Shown piece by piece: positions 11,941-30,561 of a stretch of 33,232 nt of DNA (its first letter is position 1; every line of letters starts with the position of its first letter). Location of the stretch: contig CAJBVG010000289.1 in NCBI GenBank assembly GCA_903958995.1, positions 1-33,232 of the forward strand, given 5' to 3'. The stretch comes from an uncultured bacterium. GTDB lineage: Bacteria > Bacteroidota > Bacteroidia > Sphingobacteriales > Sphingobacteriaceae. The translations under genes were made by a program, and so were the position numbers. Below the pieces are notes generated by a model. The model was given only the letters and a program-made list of their open reading frames with translations, had not been told where the DNA came from and searched no databases.

Positions 11941-11946
11941 AGAAAC

Positions 11947-12000
11947 AAGTATTGAGATATGAGATATGAGAAATCTCTCAAATCTCATATCTCAATTCTT
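11947..12000. repeat. Inverted-repeat array, 7-nt unit (GAGATAT family); likely bidirectional terminator
   Basis: Arm 11947-11971 AAGTATTGAGATATGAGATATGAGA vs arm 11976-12000 TCTCAAATCTCATATCTCAATTCTT (23/25 complementary), loop AATC. Sits between convergent tonB-like and sdhB stops. Confidence 0.92.
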
Positions 12001-12004
12001 ACAA

Positions 12005-12766: not shown

Positions 12767-12790
12767 AGTATTAGTGTTTATTTTTTGTTT

Positions 12791-12857
12791 GTTATTATGT
12801 TATTGAGTTATGAAGTTATTAGGTTTATTAACCCAATAACGAAATAACCTAATGACC
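12791..12857. repeat. Inverted-repeat array, 8-nt unit (GTTATTRG family), empty form, between sdhA and sdhB
   Basis: GTTATTAT|GTTATTGA|GTTATGAA|GTTATTAG|GTT-TATT-AAC|CCAATAAC|GAAATAAC|CTAATGAC, ending exactly at the sdhA stop codon (12857-12859). Confidence 0.92.
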
Positions 12858-14839
12858 TATTTATAGCTACGTTGAGCAATTTTAATATTCTCGTATTTCA
12901 ACTCTTCTTTGTGAAGTGATGGTTCTGCATCTAATCCTTTAAACTCCCAATTAGAAACATACGCGAATTTTTCATCATCACGCATTGCTTCACCTTCTTC
13001 AGTTTGGAATTCTTCGCGGAAGTGACCACCACAAGATTCGTTTCTATCCAACGCATCTTTACACATTAATTCACCCAGCTCAATAAAATCCGCAACTCGT
13101 CCTGCTTTTTCTAATTCAGGATTAAATTCATCGGCAGTACCTGTAACACGTACATCCGACCAAAACTCTTTACGTATTTGTTGTATTTCTGTAATCGCTT
13201 CTTTTAATCCTTCAGCGTTACGAGCCATACCACATTTATCCCACATAATTTTTCCTAAGCGCTTGTGGAAATGATCCACCGACTTCGTTCCTTTTATGTT
13301 GAATAAATTTTCGATTTGTGATTTTACTTTATTTTCTGCTTCTACAAATGCTTCATGATTTGTATCAATTGCTTTTGTTGCAATTTCTTTTGATAAATAA
13401 CTTCCGATAGTATAAGGAATAACGAAGTATCCATCGGCTAATCCTTGCATCAATGCAGATGCACCTAAACGATTCGCACCATGGTCAGAGAAGTTTGCTT
13501 CTCCTAATGCGTACAAACCTGGTACAGTTGTCATCAAATTATAATCAACCCATAAACCACCCATAGTATAATGCACTGCTGGGTAAATTCTCATTGGTTG
13601 CTCGTATGGATTTTCACCAGTAATTTGCTGATACATATCGAACAAGTTTCCGTATTTCTCTTTCACAACTTCTTTACCCATGCGGATTATTTCTTCTTCA
13701 GTTGGACTGTGCATATTGCGTTTGCTTGCTTCAACATTACCATAACGTTTAATGTTATAAGCAAAATCTAAATATACCGCCATCTTAGAAGTACCTACTC
13801 CGTAACCAGCATCACATCTTTCTTTTGCAGCTCTCGATGCAACGTCACGTGGTACTAAGTTTCCGAAAGCTGGATATCTTCTTTCTAAATAATAATCTCT
13901 TTCTTCTTCTGGAATTTCAACAGGGTTACGAGTATCACCTTGCTTTTTAGGAACCCAAATTCTACCATCATTACGTAAGGACTCAGACATCAATGTAAGT
14001 TTTGATTGATGATCTCCTGAAACCGGAATACATGTTGGGTGAATTTGTGTAAAGCATGGGTTACCAAAAAATGCTCCTTGCTTGTAAGCTTTCCAAGCTG
14101 CAGTAACATTTGATCCCATCGCATTTGTAGATAAATAGAATACGTTTCCGTAACCACCTGTACATAATAGTACGGCATGTCCGAAGTGACGCTCTAATTT
14201 ACCAGTAACTAAATCTCTTGCAATAATACCTCTACATACACCATCAATTTTTACGACGTCTAACATTTCATGGCGAGTGTACATTTTAACTGAACCCATA
14301 CCAACCTGACGTTGTAATGATGAATATGCTCCTAGTAATAATTGTTGTCCGGTTTGACCAGCTGCGTAAAATGTACGTTGAACTTGAGTACCACCAAATG
14401 AACGGTTAGATAATAAGCCTCCGTATTCACGAGCAAATGGAACACCTTGAGCAACACATTGGTCGATGATGCTTGAACTCACTTCTGCTAAACGATATAC
14501 GTTCGCTTCACGAGCACGATAGTCACCACCTTTAATCGTATCATAAAATAAACGGTAAACAGAGTCACCATCATTTTGATAATTTTTTGCTGCATTAATA
14601 CCACCCTGTGCTGCAATTGAATGCGCGCGACGAGCAGAATCTTGAAAACAAAAAACTTTTACTTTGTAACCAAGCTCAGCTAATGCTGAAGCAGCTGATG
14701 CTCCGGCAAGACCTGATCCTACTACGATTACTTCTAAATTTCTTTTGTTAGAAGGATTTACCAATGGAACTGTAGAACGATATTTCGTCCACTTTTGCTC
14801 CAATGTTCCTTCTGGTATTTTAGCATCTAATACTGACAT
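12857..14839 (-). CDS. sdhA: Succinate dehydrogenase / fumarate reductase flavoprotein subunit
   Basis: [148 protein letters not shown]. Confidence 0.98.
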
Positions 14840-17556: not shown

Positions 17557-17594
17557 ACTTTTTTAAATGTAGGATTAAAACTACAAATAAAATT

Positions 17595-17687
17595 TAGAAA
17601 TATAGAAGGGTAGAACTGTAGAAAGGTAGAACTATAGAACTGTGGAAGAGTCTTATTCTATAGTTCTATACTTCTATTATTCTATAA
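17595..17687. repeat. Inverted-repeat array, 8-nt unit (TAGAACTG family), copy 1
   Basis: TAGAAATA|TAGAAGGG|TAGAACTG|TAGAAAGG|TAGAACTA|TAGAACTG|TGGAAGAG - TCTTA - TTCTATAG|TTCTATAC|TTCTATTA|TTCTATAA; overlaps the stop codon at 17677-17679. Confidence 0.93.
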
Positions 17688-19275
17688 TGAGTTTTTGTAG
17701 AACTTTGTTTTTACCAACTGTTACATAAACCATATATTCTCCAGCAACTTCGAAATTTTTCTCTTCAATTCTGTATCGATTTTCACCAATTTCAGCATCA
17801 GTAATTATTCGCTCACAAATTAATTTTCCAGTAAGATCATAAACAGAAATTATTACATTTTCTTTTTGAATTAAATTGAAAATCAAATGCACTTTTCCTT
17901 CAGAAGGATTAGGATAAATCTGTAACTGTAATTTATTTATACTCTGTACATTTAAGATATTAGTAGTGGCATTGTTTTTTACTAATAAAACTTTGTACAA
18001 TACTGAACTCGCTGTACTTTGTGTTCCGTCATTTATCCAGAATACATTTTTTGCAGTGCTATTAATTCCTCCATACACATATCCTAATAAAACTGAATCG
18101 CCAGTTAAGCTATTTAATTTTATAATTCCATTTGTATAAGTTGGAATATTTTGATTGATTAAAAATTCTGCTCCTGCCCCTAAATAACCTGGCATCTCAG
18201 TAGACATTTTATACTCTGACAATCCACCAAATTCATCGCGAGTAACTCGTGCTATCGTTTTTACAAATGGTACATTATTGTCTTGAACTAAAATTCCTGC
18301 ACTGTCATAATACTGTGCAATACCTCCAAAAAATAAATTGTGCATTTTATTATTTAATGAATCATATAGTGGTATAGTTGCGCAGTGATAATGATTGTAA
18401 TACTGTGAGAAATTTGGATTCACTGTATATCCCGAACTATCAATACTTACACTATTTAGATATGGAATATCCGCTTGTACTTGGAATACTCCAGAAAATG
18501 CAATAACGCCTTCTTTTCTATCTTTTGTGATTTGAGAAATAACATTATAATCTCTACGATGCAATTGCTCTGCATCTACAATTTTTAGTTTGTTAACAAT
18601 AGAAATGCTTGTGCCATTATCAACGATTTGAAATTTCAAATAACCATTAGCATAAGTCTGCACAAAAGTTCCATGCATCATCGGATTGTATCGTCCATCG
18701 AATCTTTGTCCACCTACTAAATAATACGTGTCATAAATTTTCTTTAAATGCGCTCCAGTAATCGCTAATTGCTCATCGTGTATTTGTCTGAAGTATGGAG
18801 TTAATGATGTGTTGTTGATGATAGCTGAAATAACTCCTGGCAAGTTTACTGCTGTTAAATATGGGAAAGTAATATGATCAACCGAATCTGTACTATATCC
18901 ATATCCACCAACTAAATACAACATTTCACCTACTTGATTGTACTGCATATTCGTAGTACTTAATTGTTCTGCAATTGAAGTTGGTAAACTTGATACCGCT
19001 TTAGTCCACACTTGATTAGTTTGCGGATCAATTAATATAAGCTGATTGTTGTGCCCAGCTAAATCAAATGTCGCATTCGGTTGTCTTCGATGCAATCCAT
19101 CTAGTCTACCCCCAATAATTAGATATTTACCTTGGTATTCGGCATGCGCAAATGCTTGCACACCGCCTAGATTTGGGATGTTTTGTGCTTCTAATTTAAT
19201 AGTGTGGTTAAAATCTTGTGCAAGACTAACTTGCATTAGACCTAAGCTAATCCACAACAAAAGGACTTTCTTCAT
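17677..19275 (-). CDS. Secreted kelch/propeller-like protein with T9SS type A sorting domain
   Basis: Signal peptide MKKVLLLWISLGLMQVSLAQ from ATG 19275; YLIIGGRLDGLHR, YLVGGYGYS, YLVGGQRFDGRYN kelch-like blades; C-terminal LQLQIYPNPSEGKVHL...YMVYVTVGKNKVLQKLIIE. Confidence 0.85.
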   Translation of the reverse strand: MKKVLLLWISLGLMQVSLAQDFNHTIKLEAQNIPNLGGVQAFAHAEYQGKYLIIGGRLDGLHRRQPNATFDLAGHNNQLILIDPQTNQVWTKAVSSLPTSIAEQLSTTNMQYNQVGEMLYLVGGYGYSTDSVDHITFPYLTAVNLPGVISAIINNTSLTPYFRQIHDEQLAITGAHLKKIYDTYYLVGGQRFDGRYNPMMHGTFVQTYANGYLKFQIVDNGTSISIVNKLKIVDAEQLHRRDYNVISQITKDRKEGVIAFSGVFQVQADIPYLNSVSIDSSGYTVNPNFSQYYNHYHCATIPLYDSLNNKMHNLFFGGIAQYYDSAGILVQDNNVPFVKTIARVTRDEFGGLSEYKMSTEMPGYLGAGAEFLINQNIPTYTNGIIKLNSLTGDSVLLGYVYGGINSTAKNVFWINDGTQSTASSVLYKVLLVKNNATTNILNVQSINKLQLQIYPNPSEGKVHLIFNLIQKENVIISVYDLTGKLICERIITDAEIGENRYRIEEKNFEVAGEYMVYVTVGKNKVLQKLIIE

Positions 19276-19344: not shown

Positions 19345-19460
19345 TAGAAGGGTAGAGCTGTGGAAAGGTAGAATTGTAGAAGTATAGAAGTATAGAACTG
19401 TGGAAAAGTCTAATCTATATTTCCACAGTTCTATAGTTCTACAGTTCTATTTTTCTATTA
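19345..19460. repeat. Inverted-repeat array, 8-nt unit (TAGAACTG family), copy 2
   Basis: TAGAAGGG|TAGAGCTG|TGGAAAGG|TAGAATTG|TAGAAGTA|TAGAAGTA|TAGAACTG|TGGAAAAG - TCTAATCTATAT - TTCCACAG|TTCTATAG|TTCTACAG|TTCTATTT|TTCTATTA; overlaps the stop codon at 19447-19449. Confidence 0.94.
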
Positions 19461-21819
19461 GAAGTCTACTGGTTAAAGTTCTATTGCTTCCTTTAACATT
19501 GATTAAATACAATCCGTTCGGAAGGTCATTTAATAGTAAGCTAACAATATTATTGTTCACGCTTATTTTGTTTGAAGAAACACTGATTACTTTTTTACCC
19601 ATCGCATCAGTAATTGTGATGTTCTCAATATTAAAATTAGGTGGGATTTGAATATTTATTTTACCAGTAGTCGGATTTGGATATAACACAATCGCATTAG
19701 TATTCGTAGAATGAATTCCTGAATTTCCACCTAAACCTTTATGACCATATAATCCAGTTCCAGTTCCAACTAACAACTCGTCAAAGAACAACACATTAAT
19801 TTGTGTTCCTGTTGGATAAGTAAATCCAAGGTTCCATGATGTTCCTGATAGTGCATAATTATACACTTCGTTATCTACAGCAACATAAACAGTGTCATGT
19901 CCTAAGGTTATAGCATAACCTTGTTTTCCTGTACTCATCGGAAACCCTGATGTTGTAAATGGTGTCCACTTATTCGTTGTATTTGTAGGCTTGTAATAAG
20001 CAATTGGGTGATTAACTCCTGCATCGGTACCGCAAGCAAATACAGTATCTCCCGCAGCATTGGTATGTAAATCACGTATGCTTGCTACTATTAATGAACC
20101 TGTACTGGTATTCCCTGCATTCATGTCTTGAGTAGCTGTCCACGTTGCTCCAGATTTCACCACACGATAAACACTTCTTCCGGTTGGTGCACTTAAATCG
20201 TAATCAACTCCAACATAAGCAACAGTATCTGTTCCTTCTTTTGTAAACACAATATCATACACATCAACATCATGGTTTGGCGTAGAAGCAACATTCAATT
20301 TTATTTGTGTCCAAGTACTCCCTGAATTTTCAGAGAAGAAAAGTCCACCTTTATCTGATCCTTGTAATTGATAACCTGCAAAAATTATTGATGAATCATA
20401 TGGGCAAGTTTCTATAGCCTCACATACAATTGCGCCTGTCCAATTATAGGGCGCGTTCTCTGGTGAAAATACTTGTGTCCAACTCGTTCCTCCATTAAAG
20501 GTTCTATACACTCTTGAGTTACCTACATAAACAATGTTAGTATCACCTGCCATATCACTAGAATAATAGGGTGATCCATCACCATTAGGAAACATTGCAG
20601 GTGTCCAGTTGGGTGAAGTTGTATAAGTAGATACTTTACGTATTCCTGCTTTCGATGCTAGCCATGCTGTTGTCTTATCACTCGTCATGTCGAAGTCCAT
20701 TACTTGAACAGCTTCTACTCCATTATCTATTTCAAAAATGGTATATCCTTCGTTAATCGATGCGCCTATCCCTTGGTCGGTAGTCATGTATACAATATTA
20801 GAATCATTCGGATCTGAATATACTGCGCCATCATTGGGGTGAGTTTCAAAACCTGTTTGTCCGAACGTAATCCACGAACCTGCTACCCCTTTATTGTTAC
20901 TTGCAATTTTTGCAAAGTAAACATGGTAGTTAGAAGAAGTCCCACTGAATCCAATCACTTCACCTGCCACTCCACTAATTCCTGTATTTACGTTGGTGTA
21001 ATTGGTGTCGTTATCTGAGTATTCAAACTGTTTCGTTATTGGACCCATACTCGTGTTCGATCCTGCAATAAACAAACGTCCATCTGGAGCGATGTTCATC
21101 GTGGTATAATTATTCATTGCTGAAATTGCAGCAGGTGAAATATCTGTAAATGTAGTTGTGCTTGAAAACGAATCGTAAGCCGATTTAGATTTATATAATT
21201 TCATTGAAGCACCAGTTCCTGAATAAAATACATATAGTGCATTATTTGTTGGATCTACTGCAAACGTTGGGTTTCCAGGAGTAGGTGGCATCGCTATAGG
21301 CGAACCAACTCCTGCTGTGAAATTTCCACTTGCATCTAATGTTCCAAAATTTAATTGTGCAGCATTAGCGTAAAACATTACATTACCCGAAATAAATGAA
21401 ACATAATTTCCTCCGGTTGCAACACTCGTTGCAGCAGTTGCTGTTGCTGTAGTTTTGTAAAGAGTATTTTGTGCCGTAAAATAAATTGTTCCTGATGTTT
21501 GGTGTACTTGGAAATTACGTATTCCGCCGCCAAAATTTTTGGTTGCATCTGCAGACTTTAGTTTATGGAATGTCGGACTAAATGTTGGAGTAGTTGCCGG
21601 TGTAGCAACATCAGCATAAAACATAGAGTTCGCACTCTCTGTAGAAATTATGATTCGAGATGAATCAGGTTTATACGGGTATCCAGAAATATAATTAATT
21701 CGACCTCCGTAAACATTTTCAACTTCGGGTTTGCCTAGTTGAGCCCATGAATAATTCGCTGAGAAAAGCAGGATTATCATAAGCCATTTTCTTGTAGTAA
21801 AATGAGCTTTCATAATCAA
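19447..21819 (-). CDS. Secreted sortilin/BNR-type propeller protein with T9SS type A sorting domain
   Basis: VYRTFNGGTSWTQVFSPE, LFFSENSGSTWTQIKL (BNR/Asp-box), C-terminal IVLYPNPTTGKINIQIPPNFNIENITITDAMGKKVIS...LPNGLYLINVKGSNRTLTSRLLIEK. Confidence 0.9.
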   Translation of the reverse strand: MIMKAHFTTRKWLMIILLFSANYSWAQLGKPEVENVYGGRINYISGYPYKPDSSRIIISTESANSMFYADVATPATTPTFSPTFHKLKSADATKNFGGGIRNFQVHQTSGTIYFTAQNTLYKTTATATAATSVATGGNYVSFISGNVMFYANAAQLNFGTLDASGNFTAGVGSPIAMPPTPGNPTFAVDPTNNALYVFYSGTGASMKLYKSKSAYDSFSSTTTFTDISPAAISAMNNYTTMNIAPDGRLFIAGSNTSMGPITKQFEYSDNDTNYTNVNTGISGVAGEVIGFSGTSSNYHVYFAKIASNNKGVAGSWITFGQTGFETHPNDGAVYSDPNDSNIVYMTTDQGIGASINEGYTIFEIDNGVEAVQVMDFDMTSDKTTAWLASKAGIRKVSTYTTSPNWTPAMFPNGDGSPYYSSDMAGDTNIVYVGNSRVYRTFNGGTSWTQVFSPENAPYNWTGAIVCEAIETCPYDSSIIFAGYQLQGSDKGGLFFSENSGSTWTQIKLNVASTPNHDVDVYDIVFTKEGTDTVAYVGVDYDLSAPTGRSVYRVVKSGATWTATQDMNAGNTSTGSLIVASIRDLHTNAAGDTVFACGTDAGVNHPIAYYKPTNTTNKWTPFTTSGFPMSTGKQGYAITLGHDTVYVAVDNEVYNYALSGTSWNLGFTYPTGTQINVLFFDELLVGTGTGLYGHKGLGGNSGIHSTNTNAIVLYPNPTTGKINIQIPPNFNIENITITDAMGKKVISVSSNKISVNNNIVSLLLNDLPNGLYLINVKGSNRTLTSRLLIEK

Positions 21820-24184: not shown

Positions 24185-26800
24185 ATGAAAATACTGAGTA
24201 TACAAGCGTTGAGAGGCCCAAACATTTGGAGTGTACGTCGCAAAAAATTAATACAAATGCGTCTCGACCTTGAAGATATGGAGCAAAAACCAAGTAATTT
24301 GGTGGATGGCTTCCCTGAACGTTTAGAAGCATTGTTCCCAACAATGTATGAGCATCGTTGCTCTGAAGGTGTTGCTGGTGGCTTTTTTATGCGTGTTCGT
24401 CGCGGTACATGGATGGGACATGTTATTGAACACATTGCTTTAGAAATTCAAACACTCGCTGGAATGGAAACAGGGTTCGGTAGAACTCGTGAAACAAAAA
24501 CTCCCGGTATATACAATGTTGTTTTTAGCTATACTGAAGAAAGTGTAGGCTTATTTGCTGGTGAAGCTGCGGTTCGTATTGCCGAAGCCTTAATCTCTGG
24601 TGATGAGTATGATCTTTCTGCCGACATTAAACGAATGCGAGAAATTCGCGAAGAAGTGCGTTTAGGTCCTAGTACCTCTTCTTTAGTAGACGAAGCTGTT
24701 TCTCGTGATATTCCGTGGATTCGCTTAGGCACTAATTCTCTTATTCAATTAGGGTATGGTGTAAACCAAGCTCGTTTCCAAGCAACCATTACCGATAAAA
24801 CATCAAACATCGCAGTTGATATTGCTTGTAATAAGGAACTCACTAAAAAAATGTTATACAATGCAGCAATCCCTGTTGCAAAAGGCGATATCGTTATTGA
24901 TGAAGAAGATCTTAAACGTTGCATCGATCGTATCGGCTTCCCAATTGTTTTAAAACCTCTAGACGGTAATCATGGTAAAGGTGCTTCCATCAATGTAAAA
25001 AACATGGAAGATGCACTTGCTGGTTTAGAGTTTGCAAAAAAATATTCTAGAAAAGTAATTGTTGAGCGTTTTATTACAGGATATGATTTCCGTGTTTTAG
25101 TAATCGACAATAAAGTGGTTGCTGCTGCACAACGTGTACCCGCAAATGTTAAAGGTGACGGAAAATATAATGTTCAAGAATTAATTGACAAGGAAAATTT
25201 AGACCCTCGTCGTGGTTACGGACATGAAAACGTTTTAACAGAAATTACTGTTGATCGAGATACGACCGACCTACTGGATAAAATGGGATATACTTTAGAT
25301 ACCATTCCTAAAAAAGGGGAGATTGTTTATCTAAAATCAACCGCTAATCTTTCTACTGGTGGAACTTCTATTGATGTAACCGACATGATGCATCCAGAAA
25401 ATATTTTCTTATCTGAGCGCATCTCTCGTGTAATTGGATTAGATGTTTGTGGTATTGATATCATGGCAGAAAATTTAACTCAACCTTTAAAAGAAAATGG
25501 TGGAGTAATTTTAGAAGTAAATGCTGCTCCTGGATTTCGTATGCACTTAGCTCCTGCAGAAGGATTGCCGAGAAACGTTGCTGCTCCAGTAATCGACATG
25601 CTTTACCCTTTAGGTAAACCTTCTCGTATTCCTATTATCGCTGTAACTGGAACAAATGGTAAAACTACAACGACTCGTTTAATTGCACACATCGTGAAAA
25701 ATATGGGTTACCGTGTGGGCTTTACTACTTCAGATGGTATCTACGTTCAAAATCATATGCTCGAAAAGGGCGATACCACTGGACCATACAGTGCTGAATT
25801 TATTTTAAAAGATCCTACTGTTGATTTTGCTATTCTTGAAACTGCTCGTGGTGGTATTCTTCGTTCGGGTTTAGGATTTAGTCGTTGCGATATTGGTGTC
25901 ATTACTAATATTCAAGAAGATCATTTAGGATTAAACGATATCGATACGCTAGAAGATGTTGCACGTGTAAAATCTACTGTTGTAAAAAGTGTTAAGAAAG
26001 ATGGATGGGCAGTATTAAATGCAGAAGATGAATATTGTGTAAAAGTTGCTGGGGAACTCGATTGTAAAATTGCCTATTTCAGTTTAGATGAAAATAATCC
26101 TGTGATTAAGAAACATTGCAAAGCCGGTGGAATTGCAGCGATCTATGAAAACGGATTTGTAACCATTAAAAAAGGTGATTGGAAAATCCGTGTTGAAAAA
26201 GTTACAACCATACCTTTAACACTTGGCGGTAAAGCACAATTCATGATTGCCAATGTGTTGGCTGCAACTCTTGCTGGATATTTATATGGCTTCAAAACAG
26301 AAGACATGCGTTTATCTCTTGAAACATTTATTCCATCTGCTGCGCAAACGCCAGGTCGTATGAACATATTTAATTTCAAAGAATTTAAAGTGATGATCGA
26401 CTTTGCCCATAACCCTTCAGGATACATGGCTGTAGAGAGTTTCTTAAATCAAATTGAAAGCCCTTATAAAGTTGGAATTATCGCTGGTGTTGGCGATAGA
26501 AGAGATCAAGATATTACCGATTGCGGTGCAATCGCTGCTCGTATGTTCGATCATATTATTATTCGTCAGGAAAAACATTTACGCGGAAGAACAGAAGAAG
26601 AAATTATCAACTTAATTTTAAAAGGAATTAATTCTGTAGATAAAAAAATATCGTACGAAATTATACCGAAAGAAGTAGAAGCCATTAAACATGCTATTTC
26701 AACAGCACAACCGGGTACATTCATCACAGCATTAAGTGATGTAATTACCAATGCTATTGATATTGTTCAAAGTTATTTGGATAAAGAAGCGGGCCTTTAA
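24185..26800 (+). CDS. cphA: Cyanophycin synthetase
   Basis: MKILSIQALRGPNIWSVRRKKLIQM; ATP-grasp VLKPLDGNHGKGASINVKN; Mur-ligase P-loop VTGTNGKTTTTRLIAHI; 871 aa. Confidence 0.97.
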   Translation: MKILSIQALRGPNIWSVRRKKLIQMRLDLEDMEQKPSNLVDGFPERLEALFPTMYEHRCSEGVAGGFFMRVRRGTWMGHVIEHIALEIQTLAGMETGFGRTRETKTPGIYNVVFSYTEESVGLFAGEAAVRIAEALISGDEYDLSADIKRMREIREEVRLGPSTSSLVDEAVSRDIPWIRLGTNSLIQLGYGVNQARFQATITDKTSNIAVDIACNKELTKKMLYNAAIPVAKGDIVIDEEDLKRCIDRIGFPIVLKPLDGNHGKGASINVKNMEDALAGLEFAKKYSRKVIVERFITGYDFRVLVIDNKVVAAAQRVPANVKGDGKYNVQELIDKENLDPRRGYGHENVLTEITVDRDTTDLLDKMGYTLDTIPKKGEIVYLKSTANLSTGGTSIDVTDMMHPENIFLSERISRVIGLDVCGIDIMAENLTQPLKENGGVILEVNAAPGFRMHLAPAEGLPRNVAAPVIDMLYPLGKPSRIPIIAVTGTNGKTTTTRLIAHIVKNMGYRVGFTTSDGIYVQNHMLEKGDTTGPYSAEFILKDPTVDFAILETARGGILRSGLGFSRCDIGVITNIQEDHLGLNDIDTLEDVARVKSTVVKSVKKDGWAVLNAEDEYCVKVAGELDCKIAYFSLDENNPVIKKHCKAGGIAAIYENGFVTIKKGDWKIRVEKVTTIPLTLGGKAQFMIANVLAATLAGYLYGFKTEDMRLSLETFIPSAAQTPGRMNIFNFKEFKVMIDFAHNPSGYMAVESFLNQIESPYKVGIIAGVGDRRDQDITDCGAIAARMFDHIIIRQEKHLRGRTEEEIINLILKGINSVDKKISYEIIPKEVEAIKHAISTAQPGTFITALSDVITNAIDIVQSYLDKEAGL

Positions 26801-26801
26801 T

Positions 26802-26866
26802 CGAATTGTCGAAATGACGAATTAGCGAATTGTCGAAACCCCTGTGTTTTGCAATTCGCTTTTTTT
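26802..26866 (+). terminator. 8-nt repeat array (CGAATTGT family) merging into an intrinsic terminator after cphA
   Basis: CGAATTGT|CGAAATGA|CGAATTAG|CGAATTGT|CGAAACCC then GTTTTGCAATTCGC-TTTTTTT: stem GCGAATTGTCGAAAC/GTTTTGCAATTCGC followed by T7. Starts 2 nt after the cphA stop. Confidence 0.85.
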
Positions 26867-27671: not shown

Positions 27672-27762
27672 GTATATTGTATTATGTACAAAGTATTATG
27701 TACAAAGTATTATGTATTAAATAAAAAATACTTAATACTTTGTACATAATACTTAATACATT
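27672..27762. repeat. Inverted-repeat array, 7-nt unit (GTATTAT/GTACAAA family)
   Basis: GTATATT|GTATTAT|GTACAAA|GTATTAT|GTACAAA|GTATTAT|GTATTAA|ATAAAAA|ATACTTA|ATACTTT|GTACATA|ATACTTA|ATACATT: 13 consecutive 7-mers in register, starting the nucleotide after the SDR stop codon. Confidence 0.94.
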
Positions 27763-27765
27763 TTT

Positions 27766-27812
27766 ACCAGTCACCAGCTACTATCCCGATAGCTATCGGG
27801 AACCAGTCACCA
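27766..27812. repeat. 11-nt direct repeat (ACCAGTCACCA) flanking an 18-bp perfect palindrome
   Basis: ACCAGTCACCA at 27766-27776 and 27802-27812; TCCCGATAGCTATCGGGA palindrome at 27784-27801; overlaps the stop codon of the FAD oxidoreductase (27793-27795). Confidence 0.9.
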
Positions 27813-29034: not shown

Positions 29035-29715
29035 ATGGGATTCATGTATATTATTATGATCGGGTTTTTACTTCTTAGCTTTATTATTAGCTGGAGATTT
29101 AAATCGAAGTTCAATGAGTATTCACAACAGATGTTGATGAATGGTTTGTCGGGCAAAGAGATTGCCGAAAAAATGTTAACTGATCATGGCATTACTGATG
29201 TAAAAGTTATTTCAGTAGAAGGTTCTTTATCGGACCATTATAACCCAGCAGATAAAACAGTTAATCTTAGTCCTGATGTTTATCATGGTAGATCAGTTGC
29301 TTCTGCTGCTGTTGCTGCACACGAGTGCGGTCACGCAGTACAACACGCTACAGCATACTCTTGGTTAAACTTCCGTTCTGCTATGGTTCCTGCATTATCT
29401 GTAAGTTCAAAATATATGCAGTGGATTTTATTAGGTGGTATCTTATTACTTAATACATTTCCTGCATTATTGTTAATCGGTATTTTATTGTTTGCATTAA
29501 CTACTGTGTTTAGTTTTGTAACACTTCCTGTAGAATTTGATGCAAGTAACCGTGCGATTGCTTGGTTAGAAACCAATAACATTACACAACGTAATGAAAC
29601 CGAAACTGCAAAAAGCGCATTGAAATGGGCAGCTAGTACTTATGTCATTGCAGCCTTGAGTTCATTAGCTACATTGGTATACTACATTATGATCTTTATG
29701 GGTCGCCGTGACTAA
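29035..29715 (+). CDS. Zinc metallopeptidase, membrane neutral protease family (YugP-like)
   Basis: VNLSPDVYHGRSVASAAVAAHECGHAVQHATAYSWLNFRSAMVP; FVTLPVEFDASNRAIAWLE. Confidence 0.93.
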   Translation: MGFMYIIMIGFLLLSFIISWRFKSKFNEYSQQMLMNGLSGKEIAEKMLTDHGITDVKVISVEGSLSDHYNPADKTVNLSPDVYHGRSVASAAVAAHECGHAVQHATAYSWLNFRSAMVPALSVSSKYMQWILLGGILLLNTFPALLLIGILLFALTTVFSFVTLPVEFDASNRAIAWLETNNITQRNETETAKSALKWAASTYVIAALSSLATLVYYIMIFMGRRD

Positions 29716-29721
29716 CCTTGG

Positions 29722-29753
29722 GTTAATAGGTTAATATGTTATTGGGTTATTTT
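29722..29753. repeat. Left arm of the S23-gene-containing inverted-repeat element (GTTATTRG family, 8-nt unit)
   Basis: GTTAATAG|GTTAATAT|GTTATTGG|GTTATTTT, four units in register, 6 nt past the upstream stop codon. Confidence 0.88.
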
Positions 29754-29785
29754 AAGTGTGAGTTTATTGATTAAGTGTGGGTGAT

Positions 29786-30157
29786 ATGAATAGCTTTGAA
29801 GAATTAGAATGTTGGAAAAAAAGTGCTGAACTTAGAAAAGATATTTCTGCTTTGGTAAAGTCTTTTCCAACATTTGAAAAATATGCTTTATCTAGTCAAA
29901 TGATTAGGTGTTCGAGATCTGTCACGAACAATATTGCGGAGGGTTTTGGACGTTTTCATTTTCAAGAAAATGCTCAATTTTGCAGACAATCTAGAGGTTC
30001 TTTGTTTGAATTAATAGACCACTTATCAATAGCTCTTGAAGAAGAATATATTGATGAGGAGAAACACCTTGAACTTAAATCTAGTTGCTTGAATTGTATT
30101 AAAATACTGAACGGTTATATAAAATATTTGTTAGACGCAAAACACAATAACAAATAA
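29786..30157 (+). CDS. Four-helix-bundle protein, S23 / 23S rRNA intervening-sequence-type family
   Basis: FEELECWKKSAELRKDI...YALSSQMIRCSRSVTNNIAEGFGRFHFQENAQFCRQSRGSLFELIDHLSIALEEEYI...LNCIKILNGYIKYLLDAK; ATG 29786 preferred over GTG 29777. Confidence 0.93.
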   Translation: MNSFEELECWKKSAELRKDISALVKSFPTFEKYALSSQMIRCSRSVTNNIAEGFGRFHFQENAQFCRQSRGSLFELIDHLSIALEEEYIDEEKHLELKSSCLNCIKILNGYIKYLLDAKHNNK

Positions 30158-30177
30158 CTCAATAACCTAATAACCTA
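30144..30177. repeat. Right arm of the S23-gene-containing inverted-repeat element
   Basis: ACAATAAC|AAATAAC|TCAATAAC|CTAATAAC|CTA: reverse complement of the left-arm family. Encodes the last residues of the S23 ORF (stop 30155-30157) and contains the apaG stop codon (30175-30177). Confidence 0.88.
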
Positions 30178-30561
30178 ATTTAACTTGAACGAGCAAAGCA
30201 ATTGAAAATCCGGTATCTGCACTTCAAACAATTGTTCATCAACAATTCGTTTGAAAGTATAAGTTCCCCACATTTTTCCCATTTCTGTTTTTAGATTACA
30301 CCCAGATACATACGCGTGTATTTCGCCTGGTTCTAAAATGGGTTGCACGCCAATTACTCCTTCGCCTTCAACTTCTCTATGAGTACCATTAGAGTCGAAA
30401 ATAAACCAATGTCTAGATAATAATTGAACCGTATAATCAGATTGATTTTCGATTTTGATTTTATAAGCAAACATAAAATGAGAATTCGCCGGATTAGAAT
30501 ACTCCGGTTGGTAAGTCGTTTCGACTGTTATCTTAACACCTTCTGTAATTTTAGTTGCCAT
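30175..30561 (-). CDS. apaG: Co2+/Mg2+ efflux protein ApaG
   Basis: MATKITEGVKITVETTYQPEYSNPANSHFMFAYKIKIENQSDYTVQLLSRHWFIFDSNGTHREVEGEGVIGVQPILEPGEIHAYVSGCNLKTEMGKMWGTY. Confidence 0.97.
   Translation of the reverse strand: MATKITEGVKITVETTYQPEYSNPANSHFMFAYKIKIENQSDYTVQLLSRHWFIFDSNGTHREVEGEGVIGVQPILEPGEIHAYVSGCNLKTEMGKMWGTYTFKRIVDEQLFEVQIPDFQLLCSFKLN

Follow-up and report, generated by a model that had tools for sequence, protein, structure and literature searches.

S23 genes between convergent arrays of 7- and 8-nt repeats: a probable class of intervening-sequence-like elements outside ribosomal RNA

In some bacteria, 23S rRNA genes contain intervening sequences (IVSs) that carry an S23 open reading frame (ORF), as in Coxiella burnetii, with stems that are cut by RNase III (PMC4990558). 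What, then, is an S23 gene framed by inverted repeat arrays doing between two protein-coding genes? Such a locus occurs in the 33,232-nt contig CAJBVG010000289.1 of an uncultured Sphingobacteriaceae bacterium (GCA_903958995.1), analyzed here at full length as the window (contig C289 of genome G000, an assembly of 2.32 Mb in 356 contigs). It lies outside any 23S rRNA gene, the sole Rfam match in the window being a SAM-II riboswitch. An earlier note on this DNA had seen an IVS architecture placed between a zinc-peptidase gene and apaG; that architecture is borne out, and it proves much more general than the note supposed. With rather more confidence than doubt, we take the locus to represent a widespread class of selfish, IVS-like elements of about 470 bp, in which an S23 gene stands between convergent, AG-anchored arrays of 7- or 8-nt units.

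The focal element and its protein

The repeat units reported earlier are present as written: the left array (29723-29754) reads GTTAATAG, GTTAATAT, GTTATTGG, GTTATTTT and the right array (30143-30174) reads ACAATAAC, AAATAAC, TCAATAAC, CTAATAAC, with AAATAAC as the one 7-nt unit. Aligned locally to the reverse complement of the downstream flank, the upstream flank scored 39, which is 9.4 standard deviations above dinucleotide shuffles and better than all 50 of them. The best gapless inverted repeat pairs 29727-29752 with 30152-30177 (26 nt, 88% complementary), and TRF independently called period-8 arrays at 30141-30179. Against the right flanks of 234 other elements the focal left flank scored at most 28, and the focal right flank reached at most 36 against the left flanks of other elements. 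Because the arms begin just past the zinc-peptidase stop codon and overlap that of apaG, the element occupies the full interval that separates these genes (Table 1). The S23 ORF is intact, with a likely start at the ATG at 29786 (or possibly at a GTG at 29777) and a stop codon at 30155-30157, and its reading frame agrees with the previous observation that the right array codes for the C-terminal HNNK.

Table 1. Features of the focal element and arrays lacking an ORF in the window
Feature	Position	Strand	Evidence or remark
Upstream gene, putative neutral zinc metallopeptidase (PF04298)	29035..29715	+	profile match
Left arm, tandem 8-mers (GTTAATNN/GTTATTNN)	29718..29754	+	begins a few nt past the zinc-peptidase stop (29715)
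S23 / four-helix-bundle gene (PF05635, TIGR02436), 123 aa	29786..30157	+	profile matches and AlphaFold model
Right arm, reverse-complement array (AATAACCN units)	30141..30178	+	codes the S23 C-terminus, overlaps apaG stop codon
apaG, downstream convergent gene	30175..30561	-	profile match; stop codon 30175-30177
ORF-less inverted 7-mer array (GAGATAT)	11944..12003		array scan
ORF-less inverted 8-mer array (GTTATTNN), focal unit family, fills intergenic gap	12785..12864		array scan and unit match
ORF-less inverted 8-mer array (TAGAANNN), between two co-directional genes	17588..17691		array scan
ORF-less inverted 8-mer array (TAGAANNN), between two co-directional genes	19359..19462		array scan
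Solo 8-mer array (TCGAANNN), directly past stop codon; unit common to the G000 S23 element on contig C153 (L006)	26800..26838
ORF-less inverted 7-mer array (GTATTATGTACAAA)	27678..27767		array scan

The focal protein scored 110.9 bits against PF05635 (cut-off 33.8) and 103.3 bits against TIGR02436 (cut-off 24), and its AlphaFold model (pLDDT 96.6) is a four-helix bundle. The nearest folds were those of the two S23 relatives with solved structures, 2gsc (TM 0.84-0.89) and 2rld (TM 0.74-0.79), both of which have five chains in the deposited entry; next came 4dwl, an Avd protein of diversity-generating retroelements (DGRs). The Avd family (PHROG 3206) was matched by 28 of 31 S23 proteins, and its members (4dwl, 8ube) share the four-helix-bundle fold, but identity to S23 is 8%; neither a reverse transcriptase (RT) nor a template repeat was noticed beside the elements among the neighbours examined, no dedicated RT search having been made. 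The S23 genes of three ortholog pairs are under purifying selection (dN/dS about 0.06-0.11). An apparent frameshift near the C-terminus was seen in the congener ortholog of the focal gene (G001:C205, L040). None of the 31 S23 proteins matched the PADLOC models of anti-phage defence, and no S23 match to the query was found in phage records.

Recurrence of the arms within and beyond the class

Eight PF05635 loci are present in G000, most of them with mirrored short-period arrays of differing units, and the family occurs in 122 of the 149 genomes of the class, with up to 23 copies per genome. For 237 elements, in a sample tilted to high-scoring hidden Markov model matches, each upstream flank was aligned to its reverse-complemented downstream flank. 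A score of at least 24 was reached by 85% of 160 class S23 genes, as against 8% of mispaired, 21% of reversed and 18% of direct-orientation flanks, and by 4% of 25 apaG control genes in an earlier run; at a score of at least 36 the class sample gave 50% for own flanks and 0.5% for mispaired ones. The comparison of homologous S23 genes with background, proposed in the earlier note as a check, thus came out in favour of the arrays. The same anatomy recurs in several phyla. Arms scoring at least 28 flanked 18 of 20 cyanobacterial S23 genes on plasmids (mispaired, 10%), and plasmid S23 genes of Gemmatirosa (score 61) and Azospirillum (47) were also armed, with G-rich units. Three cyanobacterial plasmid elements (L404, L412, L419) lie within CRISPR-Cas operons, twice between cas6 and cas4 and once between cas10 and cmr3.

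Elements span a median of 474 bp (237 elements), with arms of about 31 nt. Identity at lag 7 within the arms was 0.61 versus 0.32 after shuffling (z 41), and the best period was 7 in 121 of 147 arms and 8 in 17, the focal element being of period 8; the choice between 7 and 8 did not fit the S23 tree (15 changes, 16 expected). The heptad common to the elements, A-G-W-W-N-T-N, is anchored by AG and carries 2.41 bits versus a maximum of 1.81 in permuted controls, and left arms are poor in C (G above C in 157, below it in 9). Several S23 genes of G000 are preceded by a TGCATNNATGCA motif, which was rejected as part of the element, being a promoter-like motif found genome-wide. A dispersed palindrome, TTGGTGGCAYGACTTAAGTSRTGCCACCAATTACCTGCAT, often stands beside that motif, at 2212-2280 of the window and on other G000 contigs; the SAM-II riboswitch lies at 769-829, upstream of an ORF at 882-2135.

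Arm units differ between elements, yet both arms of one element match. Among elements at one and the same operon junction, the two arms of an element usually scored 31-45 against each other, compared with 18-21 for arms exchanged between elements, and arm similarity across elements fades below about 60% protein identity. The focal ortholog in congener G001 has longer arms, each containing an insert of roughly 30 nt that neither focal arm has, and the two arms therefore change in concert.

Operon junctions, empty sites and arrays without the gene

The S23 gene and both neighbours were co-directional in 198 of 237 elements, with left arms starting a median of 4 nt past the upstream stop codon and right arms ending a median of 12 nt before the downstream ATG. 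Neighbours were named by reading their translations, and because the scan was driven by a narrower alignment (A2), the 80 named loci are biased to the fad-operon subfamily. The commonest junctions were 3-hydroxyacyl-CoA dehydrogenase (HADH)/thiolase (46) and thiolase/acyl-CoA dehydrogenase (20); sufB/sufC (10), sdhA/sdhB (6), argC/argD (5), odhB/lpd, a split metH and nrdB/nrdA also recurred, and in genome G125 the S23 gene is flanked by what read as groES and groEL.

Sites that are filled in one genome are empty in others. In relatives lacking the S23 gene, the gap between the zinc-peptidase gene and apaG measures 51-320 bp and typically holds a terminator and no array, in line with the earlier note's expectation for this site, except at L068, where a tiny 2-unit palindrome is present. 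The HADH/thiolase gap is 4-77 bp in empty genomes, G000 among them, and 445-690 bp (once 1255) when filled by S23; at L316 and L308 it holds inverted arrays without an ORF. Two further genomic copies of this gap, L326 and L310, carry unrelated ORFs, which by eye look ORF6N-like and HNH-like, and no arms. The groES/groEL element of G125 is missing from its congener G091, in which the flanks are 84-93% identical and the gap, of 68 bp, contains a single array of AG heptads. Orthologous sites thus show the presence/absence polymorphism that is a feature of mobile elements, and this supports the earlier suggestion of mobility, although neither a transposition enzyme nor a target duplication nor a jump was seen.

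Intergenic arrays, a few of which belong to S23 elements, are enriched in S23-rich genomes, with 34 in 389 kb as against 4 in 379 kb of S23-free genomes, where their density is near the shuffled background; G000 has 49 in 230 kb. Of 65 ORF-less arrays in G000, 22 match units of four of its own S23 elements, whereas sets of four foreign arms matched 1.9 on average and 8 at most. In the other S23-rich genomes, mean similarity to own arms, with shared ancestry left in, lay above all 100 draws.

Competing explanations and relation to known repeats

That AT-rich intergenic sequence yields apparent repeats by chance deserves almost no credence: in its favour are the high AT content of the region and the shortness of the focal arms (about 26-37 nt), but shuffling, mispairing, reversed flanks and the apaG genes all refute it, and the pattern also appears with G-rich units in Azospirillum and Gemmatirosa. 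A more serious contender is a device acting at the RNA level, in which the arms would pair in the polycistronic mRNA and RNase III would cut them, or the S23 cistron would loop out, keeping the upstream stop near the downstream start for translational coupling or regulating the downstream gene. Such a device would suit arms that reach from the upstream stop to the downstream start in operons with a co-directional S23 gene, left arms whose depletion in C avoids self-pairing, the RNase III-cut stems of rRNA IVSs (PMC4990558) and the coupling or transcript stability proposed for cyanobacterial 7-bp hairpins (PMC2670836). The focal RNA does fold with its arms paired as a closing stem (z -4.8). However, arm mismatches comprised 174 G.U and 217 A.C pairs, with none of the G.U excess expected from selection on sense-strand RNA, the genes on either side of the focal element are convergent, and the cyanobacterial copy L403 is antisense to its operon. 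We consider this explanation rather unlikely; the RNA processing raised in the earlier note found no specific support, although the elements may have an RNA-level role in operons.

It is also conceivable, and in our view improbable, that the arrays belong to the host in their own right, as regulatory repeats or as repeats prone to slippage, and that S23 genes merely settle in their loops. G000 has more ORF-less arrays than S23 elements, the solo array of G091 and the ORF-less palindrome of L316 in the fad operon occur without the gene, and polymerase slippage has been discussed as an origin of heptamer repeats (PMC4692102). Against this stand the near-background array density of S23-free genomes, the units that ORF-less arrays of G000 share with its own S23 elements, and the recurrence of AG-rich convergent arms around S23 genes across phyla.

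Since the arm mismatches show no G.U bias, arm symmetry seems to be kept at the DNA level, which favours a selfish, IVS-like element with S23 acting on the arrays and host enzymes doing the copying. Several observations weigh against that interpretation. The S23 tree tracks the operon junction (24 changes, 54 expected by shuffling), so many elements persist vertically as old residents rather than hop; clear arms were not seen in about 15% of elements; and no target-site duplication was noticed at groES/groEL, where no systematic search was made. The comparison of S23-rich with S23-free genomes ignores phylogeny, and unit sharing in the other S23-rich genomes was modest (5 versus 1.2 arrays). 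In the protein, no nuclease, recombinase or RT domain was found, and a net charge of +1 (median; -1 in the focal protein) is no mark of a strongly basic nucleic-acid binder. On balance, the loci are best seen as a class of IVS-like elements located outside rRNA, with an S23 protein that probably acts on the arrays, and we infer that the elements are mobile or spread by copying. Binding of S23 to the arms is plausible from the sequences, because the AG anchor is shared and units are common to S23 elements and ORF-less arrays. An S23 oligomer, given the five chains in crystals and the Avd fold, would recognise spaced AG repeats and draw two arrays together; host enzymes would carry out propagation or arm homogenisation at the DNA level, ORF-less derivatives would arise in trans as leftovers, and insertion between cistrons would be tolerated because no gene is broken.

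Known systems resemble these elements in part. The IVSs of 23S rRNA, presumed selfish, likewise have an S23 ORF in an element of about 430-470 nt closed by terminal inverted repeats, but the present elements lie between protein-coding genes, their arms are tandem 7-8-mers that vary by element, and excision by RNase III is an IVS feature. Miniature inverted-repeat transposable elements are also short, intergenic and ORF-less, but no transposase partner or conserved terminal repeat was found for the S23 arrays, and arms differ between elements. Repetitive extragenic palindromes (REPs) and their RAYT transposase exemplify a coding element with many non-coding palindromic derivatives in one genome. 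S23 elements similarly share a genome with many ORF-less palindromic arrays, their putative derivatives, but they have no HUH nuclease, and their arms are arrays of element-specific units instead of a conserved palindrome. Also similar are the 7-bp short tandemly repeated repetitive (STRR) hairpins of cyanobacteria, for which coupling or transcript stability has been suggested (PMC2670836), and the functionally unexplained GGGANTN heptamers of Nostoc and Xanthomonas, for which slippage has been discussed (PMC4692102). Both are intergenic 7-bp tandem units, often in convergent inverted pairs or hairpins and some between operon genes, whereas the arrays described here frame S23 genes and track their presence; the likeness of the units is one of resemblance. 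The structure 2gsc comes from Xanthomonas campestris, a species also treated in PMC4692102, in whose text a term search found no mention of an S23 gene. In the open-access literature, with most subscription journals outside our scope, no paper was found tying S23 genes to such arrays.

S23 elements may be the source of the unexplained rows of short repeats scattered through these genomes. A broader proposal, which we advance tentatively and as somewhat doubtful, is that S23 is the trans-acting partner of bacterial heptamer arrays, belonging to an unrecognised, operon-borne selfish class of several phyla that would read a periodic AG spacing instead of a fixed sequence and homogenise its own arms; STRR and Xanthomonas repeats would then derive from it, and rRNA IVSs would be a special case. 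S23 genes have structures and no known function, and the literature describes the heptamer arrays of cyanobacteria and xanthomonads as unexplained, so the link gives both a testable role. That arms stay matched while their sequence drifts poses a mechanistic question of how they are homogenised, and the presence of the element class inside core operons (fad, suf, sdh, arg, groES/groEL and CRISPR-Cas) matters when the transcription of those operons is modelled.
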